64,000 bases of DNA from contig NZ_LNGH01000023.1 of the NCBI RefSeq assembly GCF_011057715.1, positions 62,001-126,000 on the forward strand. Direction: 5' to 3'. Source of the DNA: Marinitoga sp. 38H-ov (GTDB lineage Bacteria > Thermotogota > Thermotogae > Petrotogales > Petrotogaceae). Made by a program: the position numbers and the translations under genes. Below the pieces are notes generated by a model. That model was given only the letters and a program-made list of their open reading frames with translations. It ran no database searches and was not told the origin of the DNA. Shown here piece by piece: positions 5,483-50,507 of this stretch (position 1 is its first letter; each line of letters opens with the position of its first letter).

Positions 5483-6903
5483 TGGCCGGAGTCGGATTTA
5501 AATTAAATAAACTATTTCATAGAGGTGGCGTTTCAACAGATTTATTAGCCGTTGCATACTCTGTTATGGTATCTTCTGGTCCTTGGATCATTACCACATT
5601 TTCATTATGGATATTGTTAACAATTTTTAAAACTGATAATATTTATTTTAATGTATCTATTGTTTATTCTTTTGTAACTTCTATAATTGTATCAGGATTA
5701 TTCATAATGTTTGAATCTAGAAGAATTTCAGATTTGATATTCTTGAAGGATTATAAGAAAATACTACCTGAAGTTATGGGTATATTAACATATAGTTCTA
5801 TGGTTATAATATTAATAATGTTAGTTTTTTTTGCTTTTAATAGAAATGAATTATGGTTTATATTATCCTTTTCTTATTTAAATTTATCTTTATTATCTCT
5901 TTGGATAATTTCAATAGCTTCTTTATCTTCAGACTCCGTAAATTGGTATATATTAGCTTTTTTAATCATGGGAGTTTTTTCTATTATTCTTTCAAATTTT
6001 TTTGGTTCTGATGAAAACCCTTTGGGATATATTTTAGGATATGCTTTTGGTGTTAATATTGGGACATTTTTTCACTATATGATTGCTTTAATTCATTTTG
6101 GAAGTCACATGGGAATATCTTTTGAGTGGACAAAAGAATTAAGGAAATACTGGCAAAATATATTTATAGGTTTTATTTATTATCTAGCATTATGGATTGA
6201 TGACTTTGTTACCTGGTTTTCACCACATTTTGGGGAAATCCCATTAAGAGGCTTCCATTTTTCTTTTATATATGATAGTCCAATGTTTATTGCGTATTTA
6301 ACTATTATACCAACATCAACCATGTTTATTTTAGTTTTAGAAACTAGATTTTACAAGACATATAAACTTTTTTATGATTCACTAAGACAAGGGTTTAATT
6401 ATGCAGAAATAGAAATAAGAAAAAACAACATGTTAAGTGAATTAAAATATGATATAAATCTTGTTGTTAGAATACAATTAGCATTTACCTTTTCATTATT
6501 ATTTTTGAATGAATTAAATTTAATTCCATTTGTATCACAAGTTTTAAAACCAATATTAAGATTAGGATTAATAGGTGCTATGTTAAATTCTTATTATTTG
6601 ATGATTATGCTACTTATTCTTTATTTTGATTTTAGAAATACTGCTTTATACTTGAATATTTTTGTATTTCTAACTAACTTAACATTGAGTTTTCTATTTA
6701 CATATAAACTTGGATATTATGCTTTAGGAGCTAGTTATTCTATCGCTTTTGCATTGGGTACTTTCATCGGGTATAAAGTATTAATAAAAAAAGTTTCAAA
6801 TATTATTCAATTGGAATATTATAGGCAAAAATTAAATGTAGAAGATGGTTATTATATAAATTATAATGATATGAAAAGATTAATGGAGGAAAATCAAGGG
6901 TGA
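5482..6903 (+). CDS. pelG: PelG, multi-spanning Pel polymer transporter
   Basis: This 473-residue protein is almost entirely hydrophobic, with about twelve membrane helices. It starts with the PelG-like segment GVGFKLNKLF followed by a first membrane region after a polar stretch. PelG belongs to the polysaccharide flippase (MOP-like) superfamily. With PelD, PelE and PelF it forms the inner-membrane complex that moves the growing polymer across the cytoplasmic membrane. Length matches the family. The start overlaps the pelF stop, and its stop overlaps the GTG start of the PelA-like gene. Confidence 0.92.
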   Translation: MAGVGFKLNKLFHRGGVSTDLLAVAYSVMVSSGPWIITTFSLWILLTIFKTDNIYFNVSIVYSFVTSIIVSGLFIMFESRRISDLIFLKDYKKILPEVMGILTYSSMVIILIMLVFFAFNRNELWFILSFSYLNLSLLSLWIISIASLSSDSVNWYILAFLIMGVFSIILSNFFGSDENPLGYILGYAFGVNIGTFFHYMIALIHFGSHMGISFEWTKELRKYWQNIFIGFIYYLALWIDDFVTWFSPHFGEIPLRGFHFSFIYDSPMFIAYLTIIPTSTMFILVLETRFYKTYKLFYDSLRQGFNYAEIEIRKNNMLSELKYDINLVVRIQLAFTFSLLFLNELNLIPFVSQVLKPILRLGLIGAMLNSYYLMIMLLILYFDFRNTALYLNIFVFLTNLTLSFLFTYKLGYYALGASYSIAFALGTFIGYKVLIKKVSNIIQLEYYRQKLNVEDGYYINYNDMKRLMEENQG

Positions 6904-9188
6904 AAAAAATATTATTAATTTTATTTTTTATATTGTTATTTATTAACCTTTTTGGGCAAAAAAAATTGTTGCTGTTATACAAAAACTCCGAACAATATGG
7001 TGAATACATGTTTAAATACCATATAATTCCACTATTGGAAAAATACGATATTGACTATGCATTAAGCAATATAGAAGATATAAATTATTATAAGATTAAT
7101 AATAAAGATTATTTTGGTATTATAAGTTGGTATTACTCTCCTACTTTAGAAAATTCAAATTTATACTTAAGACAATTATCTTCTTTTGTTGAAAATGGTG
7201 GGTTTTTCTTTTTTTTCAATAATTTAGGAGTAACTTCTGATATAAGGGAAGTGAATAATCTATTAAATAAATTAGGAATCCATTATATGTACGACTATAA
7301 AGACATTAATAATTATAATATTAATTTTAAAAAAGATTTTTTTATTACATCACCATCTACAAATATTCTGCAACCTGTTGAGAAATATATTACATTTGGA
7401 AATAATGATATAATTTTATCTTATATTTCTAATAATGAATCTTATCCTATGATAATATTATCTAATAATGGTGGAGGAGCTATTTTTAATAGCTTTATTG
7501 ATAAAGATGGGAATGTAATTTTTAATATAGAAAAATTAATTTTAAAATTAATAAATCAAAAAGTTGGCACTCAGAATAAAATTTTAATTATTAAAACAAA
7601 CTTTGATGACGAGAGATTTTTATATTCTCAAAATGAATTAACAACTATTTTTAAGTACGCAAAATTAAATTATGAATTGATAAATGTCGATGAATTTTAT
7701 AACCTATCTTATTTCGACTTAATACCATATAGTTATATAATTTGGAATACAGATGCTGGATATATAAAAACAAAAACTATAGAAAGATATATAAATAATG
7801 GTGGAACATTCATATTTTCAACAAATATTTATAACACTCCTTGGAATATTTACGCTAAAGTTGACAATATTGATATTTCAAAAATTGTTTTCTCCAAAAA
7901 TTTATTCCCTATTGGAAATGATGAAAATGGTAGTGTGTATAATAGAAACTTTAAAATTTCTTTTAATCTTTCCTTAAATGAAAAACACACTACTTTAGCT
8001 TATTTAGAAAATAATAATGTAAAAATACCTGCTATTTGGTATGAAAAAATAAATAATGGATATATTGGTTATATATATCCATATATTATATTTAAAGCTG
8101 TTAGAGGATTAATTTTACAATCTATACTTGAAATGAAAGATACATCTATTGCAGGCTTATTAAATTCATTTATTTTTTATATAGATGATTTCCCATTACC
8201 TTCATATAATGTAGAAAAATTAGTAATTAATGGGAAAAAAATTACAGACGATGAATATTACTATGAAATTTGGTGGCCTTCTATTAAAAAATTTTCAGAA
8301 AAATATAATATAAAATATACATTTGTAACTCCATTAAGTTATAATGGATCTAGTACACCGCCATTTGAATTTACTGAATTTTTTGTTAGTAAAAATAATT
8401 ATCCATACAAAACCATGAGAGAGATTAGTAATTCTGATTTTGAATTAGGATTACATGGTTATAATCATAATTCTTTAACAAAAGATAGATGGGCTAATCC
8501 TGAAAATATTAAGTTAAGTTTAAAAGCAGCTATTAAATTTATTAGTAATATTATTGGTCATGATGCTATTATCAGTAGTTATGTTGCACCTAATAATTTA
8601 ATTGATGAGTTTGGTATAAATAATCTTTTGCAAGCTATTCCAACAATTAAAACTGTTGGTACAATATATGAAGATAACTCTTATTTGTCAGAATATGAAA
8701 TAAGAAATAATTTTACAATAATAATACCAAGATCAACATATGGTTATTATCCTTTAAGTAAAGTTTATTTAACCACTATTAATACCTTAGCTAACTTTGG
8801 AACTTTTCAACATTTTATACACTCAGATGATGTATTTTCAAAAGATAGAAATCCTAAAAATTTAACCTGGGATCAAATGTATAATAATTTAGAAACTTTT
8901 TATAATACAATTAAAAATAAATTTCCCTGGTTAAGAAATCAAACAGCTTCTGAAGCATATCCTTTTTTCTTTGATTATCTAACACAAGATGTTAAATATG
9001 AATATAATGAAAATAATTTAACAGTTATTATTCCAGATTCTTCTTTATTCCCAAAATTTTTTATGATTAAAAGTAAAATGAATATAAGAAAAATATCTGG
9101 AGGTAAAATTATACATTATTATAGAGATAATAATTTATATATAATTGAGATGAATAAAAATATTTTAAATATTGAATTTTTAAGGTGA
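6900..9188 (+). CDS. Exported DUF2194/polysaccharide deacetylase protein (PelA-like)
   Basis: This 762-residue protein starts at a GTG overlapping the pelG stop, with GGAGG in good position. It has an N-terminal signal peptide (about residues 1-19). Residues 20 to about 400 look like alternating alpha/beta glutamine-amidotransferase-like regions. A C-terminal NodB-type deacetylase region follows, with IDDFP (Asp429, Asp430) and HGYNH (His519, His523), which match the metal-binding Asp-His-His pattern. In Pseudomonas PelA a deacetylase domain partly deacetylates Pel, which is needed for export and biofilm function. The GH114 hydrolase domain of PelA is missing here and lies in a separate gene at 11441. 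The function is family-based; substrate was not tested. Confidence 0.8.
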   Translation: MKKILLILFFILLFINLFGQKKLLLLYKNSEQYGEYMFKYHIIPLLEKYDIDYALSNIEDINYYKINNKDYFGIISWYYSPTLENSNLYLRQLSSFVENGGFFFFFNNLGVTSDIREVNNLLNKLGIHYMYDYKDINNYNINFKKDFFITSPSTNILQPVEKYITFGNNDIILSYISNNESYPMIILSNNGGGAIFNSFIDKDGNVIFNIEKLILKLINQKVGTQNKILIIKTNFDDERFLYSQNELTTIFKYAKLNYELINVDEFYNLSYFDLIPYSYIIWNTDAGYIKTKTIERYINNGGTFIFSTNIYNTPWNIYAKVDNIDISKIVFSKNLFPIGNDENGSVYNRNFKISFNLSLNEKHTTLAYLENNNVKIPAIWYEKINNGYIGYIYPYIIFKAVRGLILQSILEMKDTSIAGLLNSFIFYIDDFPLPSYNVEKLVINGKKITDDEYYYEIWWPSIKKFSEKYNIKYTFVTPLSYNGSSTPPFEFTEFFVSKNNYPYKTMREISNSDFELGLHGYNHNSLTKDRWANPENIKLSLKAAIKFISNIIGHDAIISSYVAPNNLIDEFGINNLLQAIPTIKTVGTIYEDNSYLSEYEIRNNFTIIIPRSTYGYYPLSKVYLTTINTLANFGTFQHFIHSDDVFSKDRNPKNLTWDQMYNNLETFYNTIKNKFPWLRNQTASEAYPFFFDYLTQDVKYEYNENNLTVIIPDSSLFPKFFMIKSKMNIRKISGGKIIHYYRDNNLYIIEMNKNILNIEFLR

Positions 9189-42963: not shown

Positions 42964-42978
42964 ATGGGGATGATTTTT

Positions 42979-43986
42979 TTGAAAGTAAAAGTTTTTAATT
43001 TAAAACCTGGAATGATTGTTCAGGAAGATATATATAATTTAAAAAACAGATTAAATTTTAAAAAAGGTCAAGTTCTTGATGAAAAAACTATTGAACTTAT
43101 TAAAAAAAGTAATATAATTGAACTAGAAGTTTCTTTTGATGAAACTTCTAGTTTTATGCAAAAAAGTTTTGAAGATTTTGACCTTATAGTTGATGAAAAA
43201 AAATACTCTAAATGGTTAGAGAATATTAGCGGTATTTTTTCCCATTTCTCAAAAGAAGAGTTTTATGTTGCATTGAATAATATTTCTGAAGAAATATATA
43301 AAACTTTAAATGTTTCCGAATATTTCGTTTTAAACTTTATGAATTCTTTTGGAAATGATAGTTTAATGTATCATTCTTTAAATACCGCTATATTAGTTTC
43401 TATTATAGCAAAAAAATTAGATACTCCTTATATTATGTACAAACAAACAGTAAAATTTGCTTTAATACATGATATTGGTTATGCCATGTTAAATGATAGG
43501 ATAATAAATGATTTTGACAGTAATGATAAAATTTCTGTTATACATAATGTTATAGCTTACAAAAAATTACAAACATTAAAATCAGCTTTAAATTATGAAA
43601 TTTTGGATAGCATTTTATATCATCATGAAAGATATGATGGAAAAGGGAAATTCCATTTAAAAGGAGAAAAAATTCCTCCTTTAGTTAGAATGACTCAAGT
43701 TGCTGATGCATACACTTCTTTAACCGAATTAGGTTATACACCCTATCAAGCATTATCTTGGATATTAAAAAGATGTGGTTTTATCTTCGATCCATTCTAT
43801 GTAAGTTTATTGTATGAAGTGACAGGTTACTATCCCACAGGAACGCAAGTAAAATTAAGTGATGGTTCTATTGGAATCGTAATGAGAAGAAATGATATAG
43901 AATTTTTCCCTGATGTTTTAGTAGATGGGAAAATTATAAAAACTGGTCCAGATACTAATATATATATAAAGGAAGTGGTAGAATGA
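42979..43986 (+). CDS. Degenerate HD-GYP-like protein, copy 1
   Basis: This 335-residue protein, first of three tandem paralogues, has the MKVKVFNLKPGMIVQEDI N-terminal domain of the family, then the HD fold with HSLNTAIL, ALIHDIGYA and HHERYDGKGKF. The GYP part is replaced by GKF, the lysine normally following HDIG is Tyr, and the DALTSxRSYK segment is TSLTELGYTP, so c-di-GMP phosphodiesterase activity is doubtful. A C-terminal TQVKLSDGSIG domain follows. TTG 42979 is chosen because it lines up with the starts of copies 2 and 3 and follows GGGGATG; ATG 42964 overlaps that site. Copy 2 overlaps its stop by ATGA. Confidence 0.82.
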   Translation: MKVKVFNLKPGMIVQEDIYNLKNRLNFKKGQVLDEKTIELIKKSNIIELEVSFDETSSFMQKSFEDFDLIVDEKKYSKWLENISGIFSHFSKEEFYVALNNISEEIYKTLNVSEYFVLNFMNSFGNDSLMYHSLNTAILVSIIAKKLDTPYIMYKQTVKFALIHDIGYAMLNDRIINDFDSNDKISVIHNVIAYKKLQTLKSALNYEILDSILYHHERYDGKGKFHLKGEKIPPLVRMTQVADAYTSLTELGYTPYQALSWILKRCGFIFDPFYVSLLYEVTGYYPTGTQVKLSDGSIGIVMRRNDIEFFPDVLVDGKIIKTGPDTNIYIKEVVE

Positions 43987-45053
43987 AAATTATACCACTT
44001 AATAAAGCAAAATATGGTATGATATTAGCCATGGATATCAGAGATACAACTGGAAAAATTATATTCAAAAAAAATTCAGAAATAAATGAAGAAGTGATAT
44101 CAACATTAAAAAAATTTGGAATTTTTAATATTCCTGTCTCTTCATTAAAAGTTACACAAAAAATATCTCAAGAAGCTTTCAAGCATTCTGTTATTTCACC
44201 AGAAATTTTAGATTTAAATTATGAGAAAATAAAGGATGTTTTTAAAAATTTGGAAAGTAATAATAATTTAGATATTGATGCTGTTATAGATATAGCTTCA
44301 TCAATAAAAAATGAAATAGAAAATAATTATTCTGATATACTATTTGTTCCTTTAAAAAAATTAAAATCTTTTGATGAATATTTATACGCACACTCATTAA
44401 ATGTTATGATAATAAGTTCGCTATTAGCAGTTGAAAGTAAAATTTTGGGTGATGAACTTTTAGATATATCAATATCTTCATTATTACATGATATTGGAAA
44501 AACTAAAGTTCCTATTGAAATTATGAATGCTCCAAGAGTTTTAAACGAAGAAGAAATGAATATTATGAGAAATCATGTATTATATGGAAAAAAAATTGCA
44601 ATTGAAAGTGGTATTAAAGATAAGAATATTATAGGTGGAATATACGAGCATCATGAAAGAGTTGATGGTAAAGGATATCTAGAGAAAAAAAATGGCAATG
44701 AAATTACCGTTTTTGGTAAAATTGTAGCAATAGCTGATGTTTATGATGCTCTAACAAGCGTTAGAAGTTATAAGGGTCCTTGGTCTCCATATAAGACAAT
44801 TTCATTTATTCTAACTAATGTAGAAAAACAATTTGATGGTACGTTTGCACAAGGTCTTATTAACGCTTTCGGTATTTATCCAGCAGGGACACGGGTTCAA
44901 CTTAGTAATGGCCAATTTGGTACAGTTATTGCTTCTAATAGATCAAATAAAATACGTCCATTGATAAAAATAGATCACGGAGATGTTTTAGATTTAAGCA
45001 AAGAGAAAAATTTAAGAATTGTAAAGGTATTGGACTATATTTTAATAGAGTGA
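43983..45053 (+). CDS. HD-GYP-type phosphodiesterase, copy 2
   Basis: This 356-residue protein has the conserved HD residues: His137 in AHSLNVM, His169-Asp170 in LLHDIGKTKVP, and His223-His224 in YEHHERVDGKGYL. The GYP triplet reads GYL (231-233). DVYDALTSVRSYK is intact. HD-GYP enzymes hydrolyse c-di-GMP to pGpG or GMP with a di- or tri-iron centre; activity is plausible, with the GYP change a caveat. A C-terminal GTRVQLSNGQFG domain matches the other copies. It overlaps copy 1 and lies 9 bases before copy 3. Confidence 0.9.
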   Translation: MKIIPLNKAKYGMILAMDIRDTTGKIIFKKNSEINEEVISTLKKFGIFNIPVSSLKVTQKISQEAFKHSVISPEILDLNYEKIKDVFKNLESNNNLDIDAVIDIASSIKNEIENNYSDILFVPLKKLKSFDEYLYAHSLNVMIISSLLAVESKILGDELLDISISSLLHDIGKTKVPIEIMNAPRVLNEEEMNIMRNHVLYGKKIAIESGIKDKNIIGGIYEHHERVDGKGYLEKKNGNEITVFGKIVAIADVYDALTSVRSYKGPWSPYKTISFILTNVEKQFDGTFAQGLINAFGIYPAGTRVQLSNGQFGTVIASNRSNKIRPLIKIDHGDVLDLSKEKNLRIVKVLDYILIE

Positions 45054-45062
45054 GGGGTTTTT

Positions 45063-46127
45063 ATGAAGTTTCTATCTATAGATAAAGTATTACCAAACAT
45101 GGTATTAGCAATGGATGTAAAAGATTTTTCTGGAAAAATTTTATATAAAAAAGGAACATTATTAGATGAATCAAAAATTAAAAACATTAAAAATAATGGG
45201 ATTTTTAGAATTCCAATTAAAGATGTATCTAATATGAATTTTGATACTTATATAAATACAACAATTAGTAAAGAACTTCTAGAAAAAAGTTTTATAAAAA
45301 TTAAAAATATTTTTGAAACGCTAATTTCTACAGGAAATTTGAATATTCCAGAAATTGAAAATATCACTACTGAAATTGTGAAAGAAATGAGTAATAATTT
45401 TTCAGATAAAATCTTTGTCCCTCTAAAAAAATTAAAAAATTATGATGACTATTTATACTCCCATTCTTTAAATGTAATGATTTTAAGTACCTTAATTGCT
45501 TTAGATATGGGAATTAAAAATGATGAATTAGTAGAAATAGGTTTAAGCGGTATATTACATGATGTTGGAAAAACAAAAATACCTTTAGAGATATTAAATG
45601 CTCCTAGAAAATTATCTGAAAAAGAATTTGAATTTGTAAAAAAACATGTACTATATACTAAAGGAATATTAGAAAAATCTGGATTTAACCAAAAAAAAGT
45701 TATTGATGGTTCCATTGAACATCATGAAAGGTTTGATGGTACTGGATATATTTTTAAGAAAAAAGGAAAGGACATATCTTTATACGGTAGAATATTAGCT
45801 TTAAGCGATGTTTATGATGCGTTAACTAGCAAAAGGAGTTATAAGGAACCTTGGTCTCCTTATAAAACAATATCGTATATTTTATCTCATGTGAATAAAG
45901 ACTTTGATCCGGAAATTTCACAAAATCTTATTAATTCTCTTGGCCTGTTCCCTCCAGGTATGAAAGTAATGCTAAATGATAATTCAGAAGGAATTATCGT
46001 TGGAACTAATAGGAATAATAAAATGAAACCTATTGTTAAAATAAATAACGAAATTATAGATTTAAATGAAGATAAAAAACTAAGAATTATTAAAATTTTG
46101 GATTATCAACATATTGAAGATTTTTAA
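45063..46127 (+). CDS. HD-GYP-type phosphodiesterase, copy 3
   Basis: This 354-residue close paralogue of copy 2 has HSLNVMI, ILHDVGKTKIP (His166-Asp167), IEHHERFDGTGYI (His220-His221; GYP reads GYI) and DVYDALTSKRSYK. The C-terminal MKVMLNDNSEGI domain is shared. All metal-ligand positions appear kept, so an active c-di-GMP phosphodiesterase is likely. GGGG precedes the ATG. The 3' end overlaps the oppositely oriented DnaN-like gene by 38 bases with no terminator between. Confidence 0.9.
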   Translation: MKFLSIDKVLPNMVLAMDVKDFSGKILYKKGTLLDESKIKNIKNNGIFRIPIKDVSNMNFDTYINTTISKELLEKSFIKIKNIFETLISTGNLNIPEIENITTEIVKEMSNNFSDKIFVPLKKLKNYDDYLYSHSLNVMILSTLIALDMGIKNDELVEIGLSGILHDVGKTKIPLEILNAPRKLSEKEFEFVKKHVLYTKGILEKSGFNQKKVIDGSIEHHERFDGTGYIFKKKGKDISLYGRILALSDVYDALTSKRSYKEPWSPYKTISYILSHVNKDFDPEISQNLINSLGLFPPGMKVMLNDNSEGIIVGTNRNNKMKPIVKINNEIIDLNEDKKLRIIKILDYQHIEDF

Positions 46128-47172
46128 ATTCTTTTACATATATTTCTAGATACTTATTTTTATCTATAAATGTTATTTTCTTTTCATTTGTCTTTACTAT
46201 TATCTCATCATCCATTCTAGAAAGAATAGATCTAAATTTTCTATGATTAATCTCCATTAAATATTGATTTTCAAATTTTAAATTTATTTTCCAAGATAAA
46301 GTTGTTTTTCCATCTTTTGCTAAAATATAAGAATCTTTTCCAAAAATTATATATACTTTTATATGAACTGGTAAGGCAGTAAATGCTTTGTTCATAATTT
46401 TTTTTATTTCTTTAATATTTAATCTCTTTTCTTCCAAACTTTTAAACTCCATATTTATAGATTCTATAACCGGATTTATTACATTGCAAATTTTTATATT
46501 ATAACCCTTACCCTTTAAAATTATAGAATCATCTAAAAAAAAGATATCTATTATTTCTTCAGATAATAACGACAATGACTTTATTATATGTCGTACAGTC
46601 ACATACGGTATTCCTCTTGAAAAAGATATATTCGATTTACCTATAAAACTATATGTGCTCATATTAAAACTTTGATAATAATTCCACATATTTCCATTAC
46701 TATCAGAAATTATATTTATTATGTCTCCTTCCATTGCTAATATACTGGAAAAATCTAAAGAATCAACAAAAGTTTTTTTATTAATTTTTATTGGCGATTT
46801 ATTAAATATTTTATCTATTTTAAATTCGGGTTTTGTTTTATCTTCTGATTCTATGTTTAATGCCATATTTTCTAAATCTATTTTTAATCCTTCATCTAAA
46901 GCCAACATTCTAATAAAAGGATTTTCCTCTTCTTTTAAACCTTTTAATAATCCTTTTAAATGTTGTATAGAGATCTTATATGTTTGTTTAAATGGGAAAA
47001 ATTCTTTTGAAAAAAACATATCTGCAATAGCGCAACCATCTGTCATGGAAACTCGCAAGACTTTATCAAAATATAAATATATATATCTATGAATAGGTTC
47101 AGTTTTCCCGCAAAATTTATCTGCAAATTCTGTAATTTTTAATAACCTTCTTGTTGGAATCCATCCTTCCAT
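46090..47172 (-). CDS. Divergent protein with DnaN sliding-clamp-like three-part layout
   Basis: This 360-residue cytosolic protein matches the length of the bacterial beta clamp and appears to hold three repeated alpha/beta units. Each has a helix after a strand, then beta-strands, then a segment like TVRHIIKSLSLLSEEIIDIF or EINHRKFRSILSRMDDEIIV, resembling the PAK-x-L-x-EL-x-KL/DDE helix of DnaN. The DnaN signature is not conserved and no clamp-loader peptide pocket can be proven by eye, so it could be a second, specialised clamp or a fold relative. ATG 47172 is chosen just after the upstream stop; a TTG at 47184 overlaps its ribosome site. It ends inside the convergent HD-GYP gene. Confidence 0.6.
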   Translation of the reverse strand: MEGWIPTRRLLKITEFADKFCGKTEPIHRYIYLYFDKVLRVSMTDGCAIADMFFSKEFFPFKQTYKISIQHLKGLLKGLKEEENPFIRMLALDEGLKIDLENMALNIESEDKTKPEFKIDKIFNKSPIKINKKTFVDSLDFSSILAMEGDIINIISDSNGNMWNYYQSFNMSTYSFIGKSNISFSRGIPYVTVRHIIKSLSLLSEEIIDIFFLDDSIILKGKGYNIKICNVINPVIESINMEFKSLEEKRLNIKEIKKIMNKAFTALPVHIKVYIIFGKDSYILAKDGKTTLSWKINLKFENQYLMEINHRKFRSILSRMDDEIIVKTNEKKITFIDKNKYLEIYVKEFKNLQYVDNPKF

Positions 47173-47173
47173 T

Positions 47174-47467
47174 CTATTCTTCAAACTCCTCTTTAGTTAT
47201 AATTTTTCCTCCTATTAATTCAAAATTTAATAATTTATATGAACCATCAAATTCAGCATTTAATTGTATTTTTTCTGAGCATTTAGAACCTATATATTCC
47301 TTATTAATAACATAAACAGCTTTTCCATCATAAGAATTTGAAAAATCATATCCCTTCCTAAGATAACTTCTAAACTTTTCACCACAATTATCACATGTAA
47401 AATAAATAACTAAAGCATTACCTTCATTATAAAATGGATTATTTTTTTTCTTTTTAAACCAAAACAT
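47174..47467 (-). CDS. Small protein with a CxxC motif
   Basis: The 97-residue protein has a basic N-terminal segment, then YFTCDNCGEKF and a later GSKCSEKIQL, giving three cysteines that could form part of a zinc or rubredoxin-like site. A final TKEEFEE lies on its stop and overlaps the ribosome site of the clamp-like gene. I do not recognise the family. Being between tmk and the clamp-like gene, it may work in DNA metabolism, but this is inference only. Confidence 0.72.
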   Translation of the reverse strand: MFWFKKKKNNPFYNEGNALVIYFTCDNCGEKFRSYLRKGYDFSNSYDGKAVYVINKEYIGSKCSEKIQLNAEFDGSYKLLNFELIGGKIITKEEFEE

Positions 47468-47480
47468 ATTATCCCCTTCT

Positions 47481-48077
47481 TTAAATATATTTCTTTACTA
47501 TATCCAATAATAATTCGAATTCTTCATTTAAAGTAAGTTCCCCATTAATTATTTCTATATTCCTATTTGGAAACCATTCCTTTAATTTTAAAAAACCTTC
47601 TCTTGCTCTTTCAAAAAATTCTTTTCCTTCACTCTCTATTCTATCTCTATTTTTATTTTTCATCCTATTAAATGAAACATCAACTGAAATATCAACAACA
47701 ATAGTTAAATCTGGCATTATTCCATTTAAAGCATGTTTATTTATTTCAAAGACCTTTTCCCAACCAAGTTCCCTAGCATAACCTTGATAAACTATAGATG
47801 AATCTACAAATCTATCCAAAATAATAATTTTATTTTTATTTGGTCTTATTAATTCTTCAACTAACTGAGCCCTACTTGCAGCAAATAATAAAGCTTCGCT
47901 TATGCTGCAAATATTATAATCTCCCAATAATAATTCTCTTATTCTTTCGCCCAATTCTGTTCCACCTGGTTCTCTGTTCCATATAACATCATAATTTTTC
48001 GATTTAAAATATTCAGCTAATTTTTTTGATAATGTGGATTTCCCTGAACTTTCTATACCTTCAAATGTAATTAACAT
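47481..48077 (-). CDS. tmk: Thymidylate kinase
   Basis: This 198-residue enzyme converts dTMP to dTDP. The P-loop FEGIESSGKSTLSKKL, the substrate motif NREPGGTELGERIRELLL and the DR[FV]VDSSIVYQG segment (DRFVDSSIVYQ) are diagnostic. ATG 48077 is chosen because AAGGAGGATAAT precedes it; the frame extends a few codons further but overlaps the upstream stop. It is followed by the small CxxC protein gene after 13 bases. Confidence 0.95.
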   Translation of the reverse strand: MLITFEGIESSGKSTLSKKLAEYFKSKNYDVIWNREPGGTELGERIRELLLGDYNICSISEALLFAASRAQLVEELIRPNKNKIIILDRFVDSSIVYQGYARELGWEKVFEINKHALNGIMPDLTIVVDISVDVSFNRMKNKNRDRIESEGKEFFERAREGFLKLKEWFPNRNIEIINGELTLNEEFELLLDIVKKYI

Positions 48078-48087
48078 ATTATCCTCC

Positions 48088-48738
48088 TTAATTCCCACTA
48101 CTTTTTAAAAACACTGGTGGATGTATTATTAAATTTTCCCCACCATTTTTTCTTAAAATACCTCCAATTAGTTGTGCATTACTATCTTTCTTTCCATATG
48201 CTATATACATTTCTTGGAGTATTAAATTATATCTTTTTGCCAATTTTAAAAAAGTCATAAAATATGTTGGATGATATACAAATATCATTCTTTTTTTATT
48301 TTTTAAAACATAGTTTGCTGCAATAAAAAATTTTTTCAGCTCATCTTCGTTGAATGTCCTAGCGGTTTTTCTTTCATCATAAGGACTAATTAGAGACTTA
48401 CTAGAATAATGAGGTGGATTAGTAACAATACAATCAACAGATTCCCTTTCCAAATAATTGGATATATTTGCAATATCATCATTAATAAAAGATACATTTA
48501 ATTCATTTATTTTAGCATTCTTTAATGAATATTCATAAGGCTCTTTTTGTATTTCAAAACCTATAACTTCTATATTATTATATTTTTTTGCTAAAGATAA
48601 AGATACACTACCTATTCCTGACCCTAATTCAAGTATTCTCTTTTCATTTTTCATTAATTTACATATTTCTATAAGAAATGTTGTTCCGTGAGTTGGTGAA
48701 TGGAACTTATTAGGTGATTCTAATATTAATTCTTTCAT
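48088..48738 (-). CDS. TrmN6-like SAM-dependent methyltransferase
   Basis: This 216-residue Rossmann methyltransferase has motif I in RILELGSGIGSVSLSLA and the substrate motif TNPPHYSS (the NPPY position carrying His), resembling the tRNA1(Val) adenine-37 N6 methyltransferase (YfiC/TrmN6) group. The change from NPPY to NPPH is seen in that region but leaves the target uncertain. It overlaps the upstream lipoprotein gene by ATGA. A closer match to another N6-adenine methyltransferase cannot be excluded. Confidence 0.8.
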   Translation of the reverse strand: MKELILESPNKFHSPTHGTTFLIEICKLMKNEKRILELGSGIGSVSLSLAKKYNNIEVIGFEIQKEPYEYSLKNAKINELNVSFINDDIANISNYLERESVDCIVTNPPHYSSKSLISPYDERKTARTFNEDELKKFFIAANYVLKNKKRMIFVYHPTYFMTFLKLAKRYNLILQEMYIAYGKKDSNAQLIGGILRKNGGENLIIHPPVFLKSSGN

Positions 48739-50507
48739 TTAATCACCACACTAGATTCCGATTCTATACTTTCAACTTCGCTATTATATATAACACTCTT
48801 AGAATAATTTGAAATTAATAATTTATTTATATTTGAATTAATAAATTTAGACCAAGAAAAATTCTTTTGTGTTATAGTGTTTACAATACTATTATTTAAA
48901 AATATTTTACTTAATCCATTAACAATTAAATTATTAAATGATGATTTTATAACTTCTAGTTTATTTATGTTATATAATGTTATATTTTTAAAGGAACTAT
49001 CTTTAATATATATTTCTTCAGAATTATGAAAATTCAAATTGCTATTATATCCTAAATTATTATATAAACAGATTCTAAAGTCATTTGTAGATAAAATATC
49101 AGAGCCTTCTAAAAATTCGGAATCTTCTAAATAAATTAATTTTGCTTTATTACCTATAATCCTAACTTTATCAAATATTGTTTTTGAGGCTATTAATATA
49201 CCTCCATCCACAATTATTTCACCATTACCGCTAATTAACGATTTACCTGCCCCTGGCATTATAAAAAATAAACCCTTAATTATTAATTGCGAATTAGATA
49301 CGAATTTTAAAACACTACCAGATTCTACCATAACAACACTTTTCTCACCTAAAACAGTTTTTCCACCTATTAAAAATTCGGAATTTATTTGTGGGAGATA
49401 TAAATTTTCTTCTGATGATTCAAGAATATTTCTAACTAAATGAACAAAAGTTCCAGAAAATCTAATAGTAGGATATGATGGAAAACTTAATGTTGAAAAT
49501 TGACTTTTTTCTCTTATCATAGCTACATTAGATTCTGTAACTCTTGCAAATGCAGCTTTCGTTTCTAAATTTTGTTTCCATCCATATAAATATGGTGTCT
49601 CTACAATATATGAATAGGAATCCGTTTCATAATTCCAACCAAATGTATCTATAGAAAAATCAATTAATCTTGGATTACCTGTTGGAATAGAGGGTAAATC
49701 TTTTTCTAATTTAATATTTACTTTTTTTTCTACTCTATTATCCCCATTATCTATAGCGATTAATGTACCTTCTTTAGAATTATCTAATAATACTTCATCT
49801 ATATTAATTAACGAATATATATTTTTTTCAGTTTTTAAAATTAATTTAATTTCATTTACAGGAGTCCAATCATCCAATACTTTTATATTTGTATTACCAT
49901 ATATTGATATATCCAAATTTTGACTTAATATTTGTGGAGGTTCATCTTTATTTGTATCTATTTCTATTATTTTAGGTTCAGAAATATTATTATATTTATC
50001 CTTTGCGTATAATTCATATTTTAAAACACCATTATTTTTTTTAATAGGAAGTGAAAAATTAATATTAAATTCATAGGAATTATTATCGGTTTTTAAAATA
50101 AATTTTTCCAAATCTGTAGCATTTGAAGATGCTGTTATATTAAGTTCTCCATTTCTAATATAATAATTTAAAAAAGATATATCTGGTGAAGTATTATCAT
50201 AATATACTGAAAAAGTTTTTTCTTGAATAACCTTATTTTTATAAACTACATTCATTTTTATATTATTCTTTCCTTCTTTCAAATTAAGGAAATAGATTTT
50301 TTCATTATCTTTTCTAAAAGAAATCTCATTATTGTTTTTATCATAAAATTTTAATATATATTCATCTATATTACTAACATTGATTTTTATGGGAAAAGAA
50401 GGTGACGCAATGTCACCTTCGATTTTAATATAGATTTTTTTCTGTATATTAGAACATGAATTCAAAAATAAAATAATTAAAAATATTGCTGTTATAACTT
50501 TCTTCAT
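48735..50507 (-). CDS. Lipoprotein with Ig-like and beta-helix-like regions
   Basis: This 590-residue protein starts with a lipobox FLNSC (Cys18), so it is likely lipid-anchored. The N-terminal part (about 25-280) looks like Ig-type beta-sandwiches. From about residue 380 it forms repeated short strands and turns with many Asn/Ser/Ile, such as NINKLLISNYS and SVIYNSEVES, typical of a right-handed beta-helix. No catalytic motif is visible. It is cotranscribed between hflC and the TrmN6-like gene, abutting hflC directly. Confidence 0.78.
   Translation of the reverse strand: MKKVITAIFLIILFLNSCSNIQKKIYIKIEGDIASPSFPIKINVSNIDEYILKFYDKNNNEISFRKDNEKIYFLNLKEGKNNIKMNVVYKNKVIQEKTFSVYYDNTSPDISFLNYYIRNGELNITASSNATDLEKFILKTDNNSYEFNINFSLPIKKNNGVLKYELYAKDKYNNISEPKIIEIDTNKDEPPQILSQNLDISIYGNTNIKVLDDWTPVNEIKLILKTEKNIYSLINIDEVLLDNSKEGTLIAIDNGDNRVEKKVNIKLEKDLPSIPTGNPRLIDFSIDTFGWNYETDSYSYIVETPYLYGWKQNLETKAAFARVTESNVAMIREKSQFSTLSFPSYPTIRFSGTFVHLVRNILESSEENLYLPQINSEFLIGGKTVLGEKSVVMVESGSVLKFVSNSQLIIKGLFFIMPGAGKSLISGNGEIIVDGGILIASKTIFDKVRIIGNKAKLIYLEDSEFLEGSDILSTNDFRICLYNNLGYNSNLNFHNSEEIYIKDSSFKNITLYNINKLEVIKSSFNNLIVNGLSKIFLNNSIVNTITQKNFSWSKFINSNINKLLISNYSKSVIYNSEVESIESESSVVIK

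Follow-up and report, generated by a model that had tools for sequence, protein, structure and literature searches.

Introduction

Bacteria are usually taken to have a single sliding clamp, the ring that keeps DNA polymerase in place on DNA, which serves all of their polymerases and repair enzymes, and archaeal PCNA can be heterotrimeric. Second bacterial clamps are so far known as close duplicates, for example in Bacillus spp., which carry a second beta clamp, DnaN-2, about 40% alike to DnaN-1 according to a secondary account of Yang and Miller 2008 (PMC3290774). The replisome of the Thermotogota, a phylum of heat-loving bacteria, is already known as odd, since the DnaE3 of Thermotogae is reported to be unusually reduced (PMC3919608), and the same source reports that Thermotogae have one extra, Exo-less PolC and that PolC usually has a C-terminal clamp motif. 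In our literature search we found no description of a clamp paralogue in Thermotogota, and the family databases searched held no curated model dedicated to the family described below.

We analysed a stretch of 64,000 nucleotides from Marinitoga sp. 38H-ov (contig NZ_LNGH01000023.1, positions 62,001 to 126,000), referred to here as the window. On its minus strand lies a reading frame of 360 amino acids plus stop (46090..47172), with the ATG at 47172 and the stop codon at 46090-46092. Judging from its orthologues and from profile comparisons with DnaN, this gene almost certainly encodes a full-length, three-domain, distant homologue of the beta clamp.

Homology and domain structure

Taken singly, the window protein gave no convincing match in Pfam, NCBIfam, PHROGs or the PDB, and the curated DnaN models of Pfam and NCBIfam do not recognise it. 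Two weak single-sequence Pfam matches, to P22_AR_N (E=0.0014) and to an EML propeller (E=0.19), were set aside as being below the cut-off and absent from relatives. HolB (delta'), whose gene comes after tmk in Firmicutes, was the first candidate and was dropped, the profile matches being all to beta clamps.

Two profiles were used, A1 with 54 family members and the broader A6 with 35 sequences. When A1 was run with hmmsearch against all PDB sequences, beta clamps accounted for the first 12 of 15 matches (best 3T0P, 4.1e-6), and the first non-clamp match came only at E=0.15. With A6, all 13 matches at E<=1 were beta clamps, and the best of them, DnaN of T. maritima (1VPK, E=2e-6), aligned collinearly, with positions 3-324 on 15-351. 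Only a few of the 35 members reach the DnaN models themselves, the best values being 1.1e-5 for Pfam DNA_pol3_beta (PF00712) and 9.8e-6 for NCBIfam dnaN (TIGR00663). Profile-profile alignment with hhalign against 28 DnaN sequences of Thermotogota ran over the full length for A1 (E=5.9e-13) and over profile positions 3-351, which include all three domains, for A6 (E=2.3e-15), as against 0.064 for reversed DnaN and 0.011-0.82 for 20 column shuffles. A second hhalign alignment placed domains 1-2 on DnaN domains 2-3 (P=2e-7), which fits an internal repeat. In many of the same genomes, the second match of the family profile is canonical dnaN itself, down to E=8e-17. The original prediction had described a protein of beta-clamp length with three DnaN-like units, possibly a divergent second clamp, and as far as homology and fold class are concerned these searches support it; the low identity to known DnaN that it reported is likewise borne out, at about 10% in the hhalign alignment. 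A chance resemblance, with the protein being unrelated to clamps, would explain why the single sequence lacks a significant family match, but the profile searches, their controls and the Foldseek comparison given below indicate clamps and nothing else, which makes this reading scarcely credible.

The three domains follow one another on the minus strand. Domain 1 (approximately residues 1-122, 46807..47172) was delimited by the A6 alignment and by alignment with DnaN domain 1, and includes the motifs G22-x-x-E25-P26 and T44-D45-G46-C47, the latter (TDGC, 47032..47043) being the equivalent of the DnaN ATD motif in the alignment. Domain 2 (approximately residues 123-246, 46435..46806) contains the helix motif IPYVTVRHIIK with the invariant R194 and K198, and within it the invariant basic RHIIK (46579..46593) falls in the presumed DNA-facing helix 2. 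Domain 3 (approximately residues 247-348, 46129..46434) rests on an AlphaFold2 segment and on Foldseek, and its conserved basic motif FRSILSR (46216..46236) lies in the presumed DNA-facing helix 2 according to model and alignment.

For the full-length AlphaFold2 model, the input consisted of the window protein together with two pieces of the M. lauensis orthologue, whose gene is frameshifted; mean pLDDT was 38.7 and only domain 3 was usable. In this part, residues 247-345 (pLDDT ~57-76) are predicted to follow the order b-a-b-b-b-b-a-b-b-b, which is clamp-domain topology. Domain 1 alone reached a pLDDT of 40.2 and no fold was obtained. The top 50 Foldseek matches of the model were all beta clamps or PCNAs, with E from 2.9e-5 and with TM-scores kept low by the unreliable remainder of the model. 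Of the three clamp domains that the original prediction expected in a predicted structure, the third shows the topology, and domains 1-2 stayed unfolded with the few input sequences. On sequence grounds, the collinear three-domain profile alignment covers this structural gap.

Distribution and genome context

A single-sequence search found an orthologue, essentially single-copy, in 56 of 61 relatives, and canonical dnaN was found in 59 of the 61. With profile A1, 100 of the 103 Thermotogota genomes gave a match, and all 38 genera were represented; the matches in two of these genomes (G048 and G090) are canonical dnaN only, and the gene is present, as a single copy, in about 98 of the 103. A reading frame conserved to this extent leaves the predicted gene on firm ground. 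The gene is apparently missing from both genomes of genus g18, both of genus g34 and genome G072, and the broader profile A6 did not recover it in any of these. Its absence from two genera suggests, within the limits of draft genomes, that the clamp-like gene is not universally essential. Loss of polC was ruled out as the cause, as the genomes without the clamp-like gene keep polC. A single-sequence pattern scan across the genomes had matches in Marinitoga only, with the nearest named relative in Marinitoga lauensis, a search of viral contigs with the near-family profile gave none, and no phage or plasmid copies were found by tblastn.

The original prediction proposed looking for a separate canonical dnaN as a check, and one is indeed present in the same Marinitoga genome (G000:C7:28677). 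The DnaN of this genome (L156:2669-3880) has an extra acidic insertion of about 30 residues in domain 1, and in several Marinitoga genomes this insertion splits the Pfam domain match. In a mixture-model tree, the new family and DnaN each formed one group with 100/100 support, on long branches; the tree was midpoint-rooted and its root does not date the duplication. Clades inside the new family track taxonomic families, which is the pattern that vertical descent in Thermotogota would give, and the family evolves fast. A recent duplicate of the DnaN-2 type was ruled out by the ~10% identity and the separate, fully supported clade. The orthologue of M. lauensis (L032:6001-7066, G003:C9:270606-271671) is broken by frameshifts, which may be sequencing error or mark a pseudogene. 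At L131:6053-7598 (genome G068), the clamp-like gene is either followed immediately by a partial second copy comprising the C-terminal half or is itself interrupted.

In the window, the clamp-like gene begins 1 base past the stop of a 97-residue Cys-rich protein (47174..47467, minus), with tmk, whose sequence reads as that of a thymidylate kinase, further upstream (47481..48098, minus). Our reading of the open reading frames agrees with the original prediction that tmk and nfo belong to this operon. The arrangement stressed there is a peculiarity of Marinitoga, and more can be learned from polC, which is the conserved neighbour in the two nearest groups. The 97-residue protein, whose position next to the clamp-like gene is limited to some Marinitoga, has a CxxC, one further Cys and a weak match to the TFIIS zinc ribbon (E=0.13). 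Convergent to the clamp-like gene are three neighbouring paralogous HD-domain proteins of 340, 356 and 354 residues (42964-46127, plus strand) with motifs resembling HD-GYP by eye, and the third of their genes shares 38 bases with the 3' end of the clamp-like gene. We also noted a lipoprotein-like protein of 590 residues (48735-50507, minus), whose C-terminal half is repetitive and which matched nothing in Pfam at E<=0.001.

Directly upstream of the clamp-like gene, within about 15 bases, polC was found in 30 of 30 testable genomes of 12 genera, comprising family f1 without Marinitoga together with family f2. The identity of polC was confirmed by NCBIfam, and ruvC precedes it in the f1 genome examined. 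The PolC C-termini of f1 and f2 keep a near-canonical clamp motif (NQISLF, EQITLF), which presumably serves DnaN. The link to polC is absent in Marinitoga, where in this genome polC lies about 52 kb off on the same contig, and in the checked genomes of other families, where the neighbours are alaS, topA/ddl, tsaD, ychF and others. Many f1 genomes (G008-G010, G013-G020) also encode another PolC-like protein, a shorter one of about 970 amino acids.

At one locus (L118), the clamp-like gene (6393-7442, minus strand) sits between alaS and hslO, and the hslO product matches PDB 1VQ0, which we take to be a T. maritima protein, essentially letter for letter. Because of this match the locus is, as judged by sequence, that of Thermotoga maritima or of a near-identical strain. 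By locus numbering the T. maritima orthologue is presumably TM1395, an assignment to be used as a lead only.

Conserved residues and charge

On the A6 alignment, G22, E25, D45, G46, C47, E148, P189, R194, K198 and C229 are invariant or nearly so, and R194 and K198 are unchanged in all 35 sequences. Mostly Lys or Arg is found in 14 columns, 11 of which fall in the six presumed inner helices that would line the hole of a clamp. These helices have a mean net charge of +9.5 and are positive in 35 of 35 sequences, against -3.0 for the rest of the protein and about -0.8 for the equivalent helices of Thermotogota DnaN. Compared with random placement of equal windows, the helix charge has p=0.00025, a value that is indicative only because we placed the helix limits of domains 1 and 2 ourselves from the clamp-topology alignment. 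The mean net charge of the whole protein is +6.5 in the new family versus -16 in DnaN.

Conservation is higher in the helix columns (0.32) than in the other columns (0.20). Residues 157-180, the equivalent of the DnaN pocket hairpin, are among the least conserved, at about 0.12. The motif of the DnaN partner pocket, with ATDGHRL in domain 2 and MPxR at the C-terminus, is not kept in the alignment of the new family, and a C-terminal LPxx or IPxx is kept in some families only. As far as the alignments indicate, conservation is inverted relative to DnaN, in that the presumed DNA side is conserved and the partner side is not. The dimer edges of Thermotogota DnaN are basic in domain 1 (+1.4) and strongly acidic in domain 3 (-4.2) in 28 of 28 sequences. 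Such charge-complementary edges are absent from the new family, where both are about 0, and an interface of a different kind, for example hydrophobic, is possible.

Discussion

These comparisons point to an ancient, highly diverged DnaN paralogue that would have been kept across Thermotogota beside the normal DnaN. By a narrow margin we favour the view that the protein encircles DNA as a second clamp, forming its own homodimer and serving a small, different set of partners in place of a general hub role. Two subunits with three clamp domains each would form a closed ring, the strongly conserved basic helices would line its hole, and the ring would ride on DNA. We infer ring formation, DNA binding, sliding, partners and any PolC link from these features of the protein and its gene. 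An own homodimer and different partners are suggested because neither the canonical pocket nor the charged DnaN dimer edges are kept. Because of the gene pair, a search for its function would best start with the PolC replisome or with repair coupled to that replisome; a direct link between the clamp-like protein and PolC is itself doubtful.

Several other readings share part of this evidence. The strongest is that a clamp-derived protein forms no ring at all and grips DNA as a monomer, an open basic half-ring with, for instance, a part in repair, in recombination or in the nucleoid. Loss of the DnaN edge charges leaves ring closure without support from conserved interface residues, and the positive overall charge and the prominence of the basic helices as the most conserved part of the protein would suit such a DNA binder. 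However, a simple DNA binder does not obviously need three full-length domains in about 98 genomes, and a hydrophobic interface is compatible with the loss of charged edges, and we consider a ringless protein unlikely, if a serious rival to the homodimeric clamp. Rather improbable is a mixed ring, in which the protein would pair with canonical DnaN and alter the number of partner pockets. DnaN co-occurs in the genomes checked, and a mixed ring could use one common clamp loader, but the acidic domain 3 and basic domain 1 edges of Thermotogota DnaN are not mirrored in the new family, and this mismatch of edge charges makes a heterodimer less likely. The protein might also regulate the clamp system or act as its decoy, binding the clamp loader or PolC and limiting loading without any function on DNA. 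The lost partner pocket and the pairing with polC are consistent with such a role, but a decoy would have no need of basic, presumed DNA-facing helices as its most strongly conserved feature, and we regard it as very unlikely.

Returning to the homodimeric clamp, it is conceivable, at rather less than an even chance, that the phylum has two clamp systems, the DnaN hub and a dedicated, more basic ring with partners of its own, encoded next to polC in some lineages and perhaps used for PolC synthesis, recombination or repair. If true, a deep, phylum-wide second clamp would amount to clamp specialisation in bacteria, much in the spirit of PCNA and 9-1-1. The orthologue in Thermotoga maritima, a species whose proteins lend themselves to expression and crystallisation, makes the proposal directly testable.

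Compared with known clamps, the new family shares with canonical DnaN (1VPK; PF00712/PF02767/PF02768; TIGR00663) its length, three-domain order and collinear alignment, the position of the ATD/TDG motif and the clamp-domain topology in domain 3. It differs from DnaN in its ~10% identity, the unconserved pocket (domain 2 hairpin and C-terminal MPxR), the lack of dimer-edge charges, the far more basic inner helices and the positive mean net charge. With PCNA, including heteromeric archaeal PCNA, it shares the domain fold, to judge by domain 3 in Foldseek, whereas PCNAs are two-domain trimeric clamps and the sequence profile of the new family matches bacterial beta clamps only. As with DnaN-2, which is summarised in the account cited above, the same genome carries a further gene of the beta-clamp kind in addition to dnaN. 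In contrast to that Bacillus protein, which the account gives as about 40% alike to DnaN-1, the new family is about 10% identical to DnaN, spans a phylum and forms a deep, separate clade.
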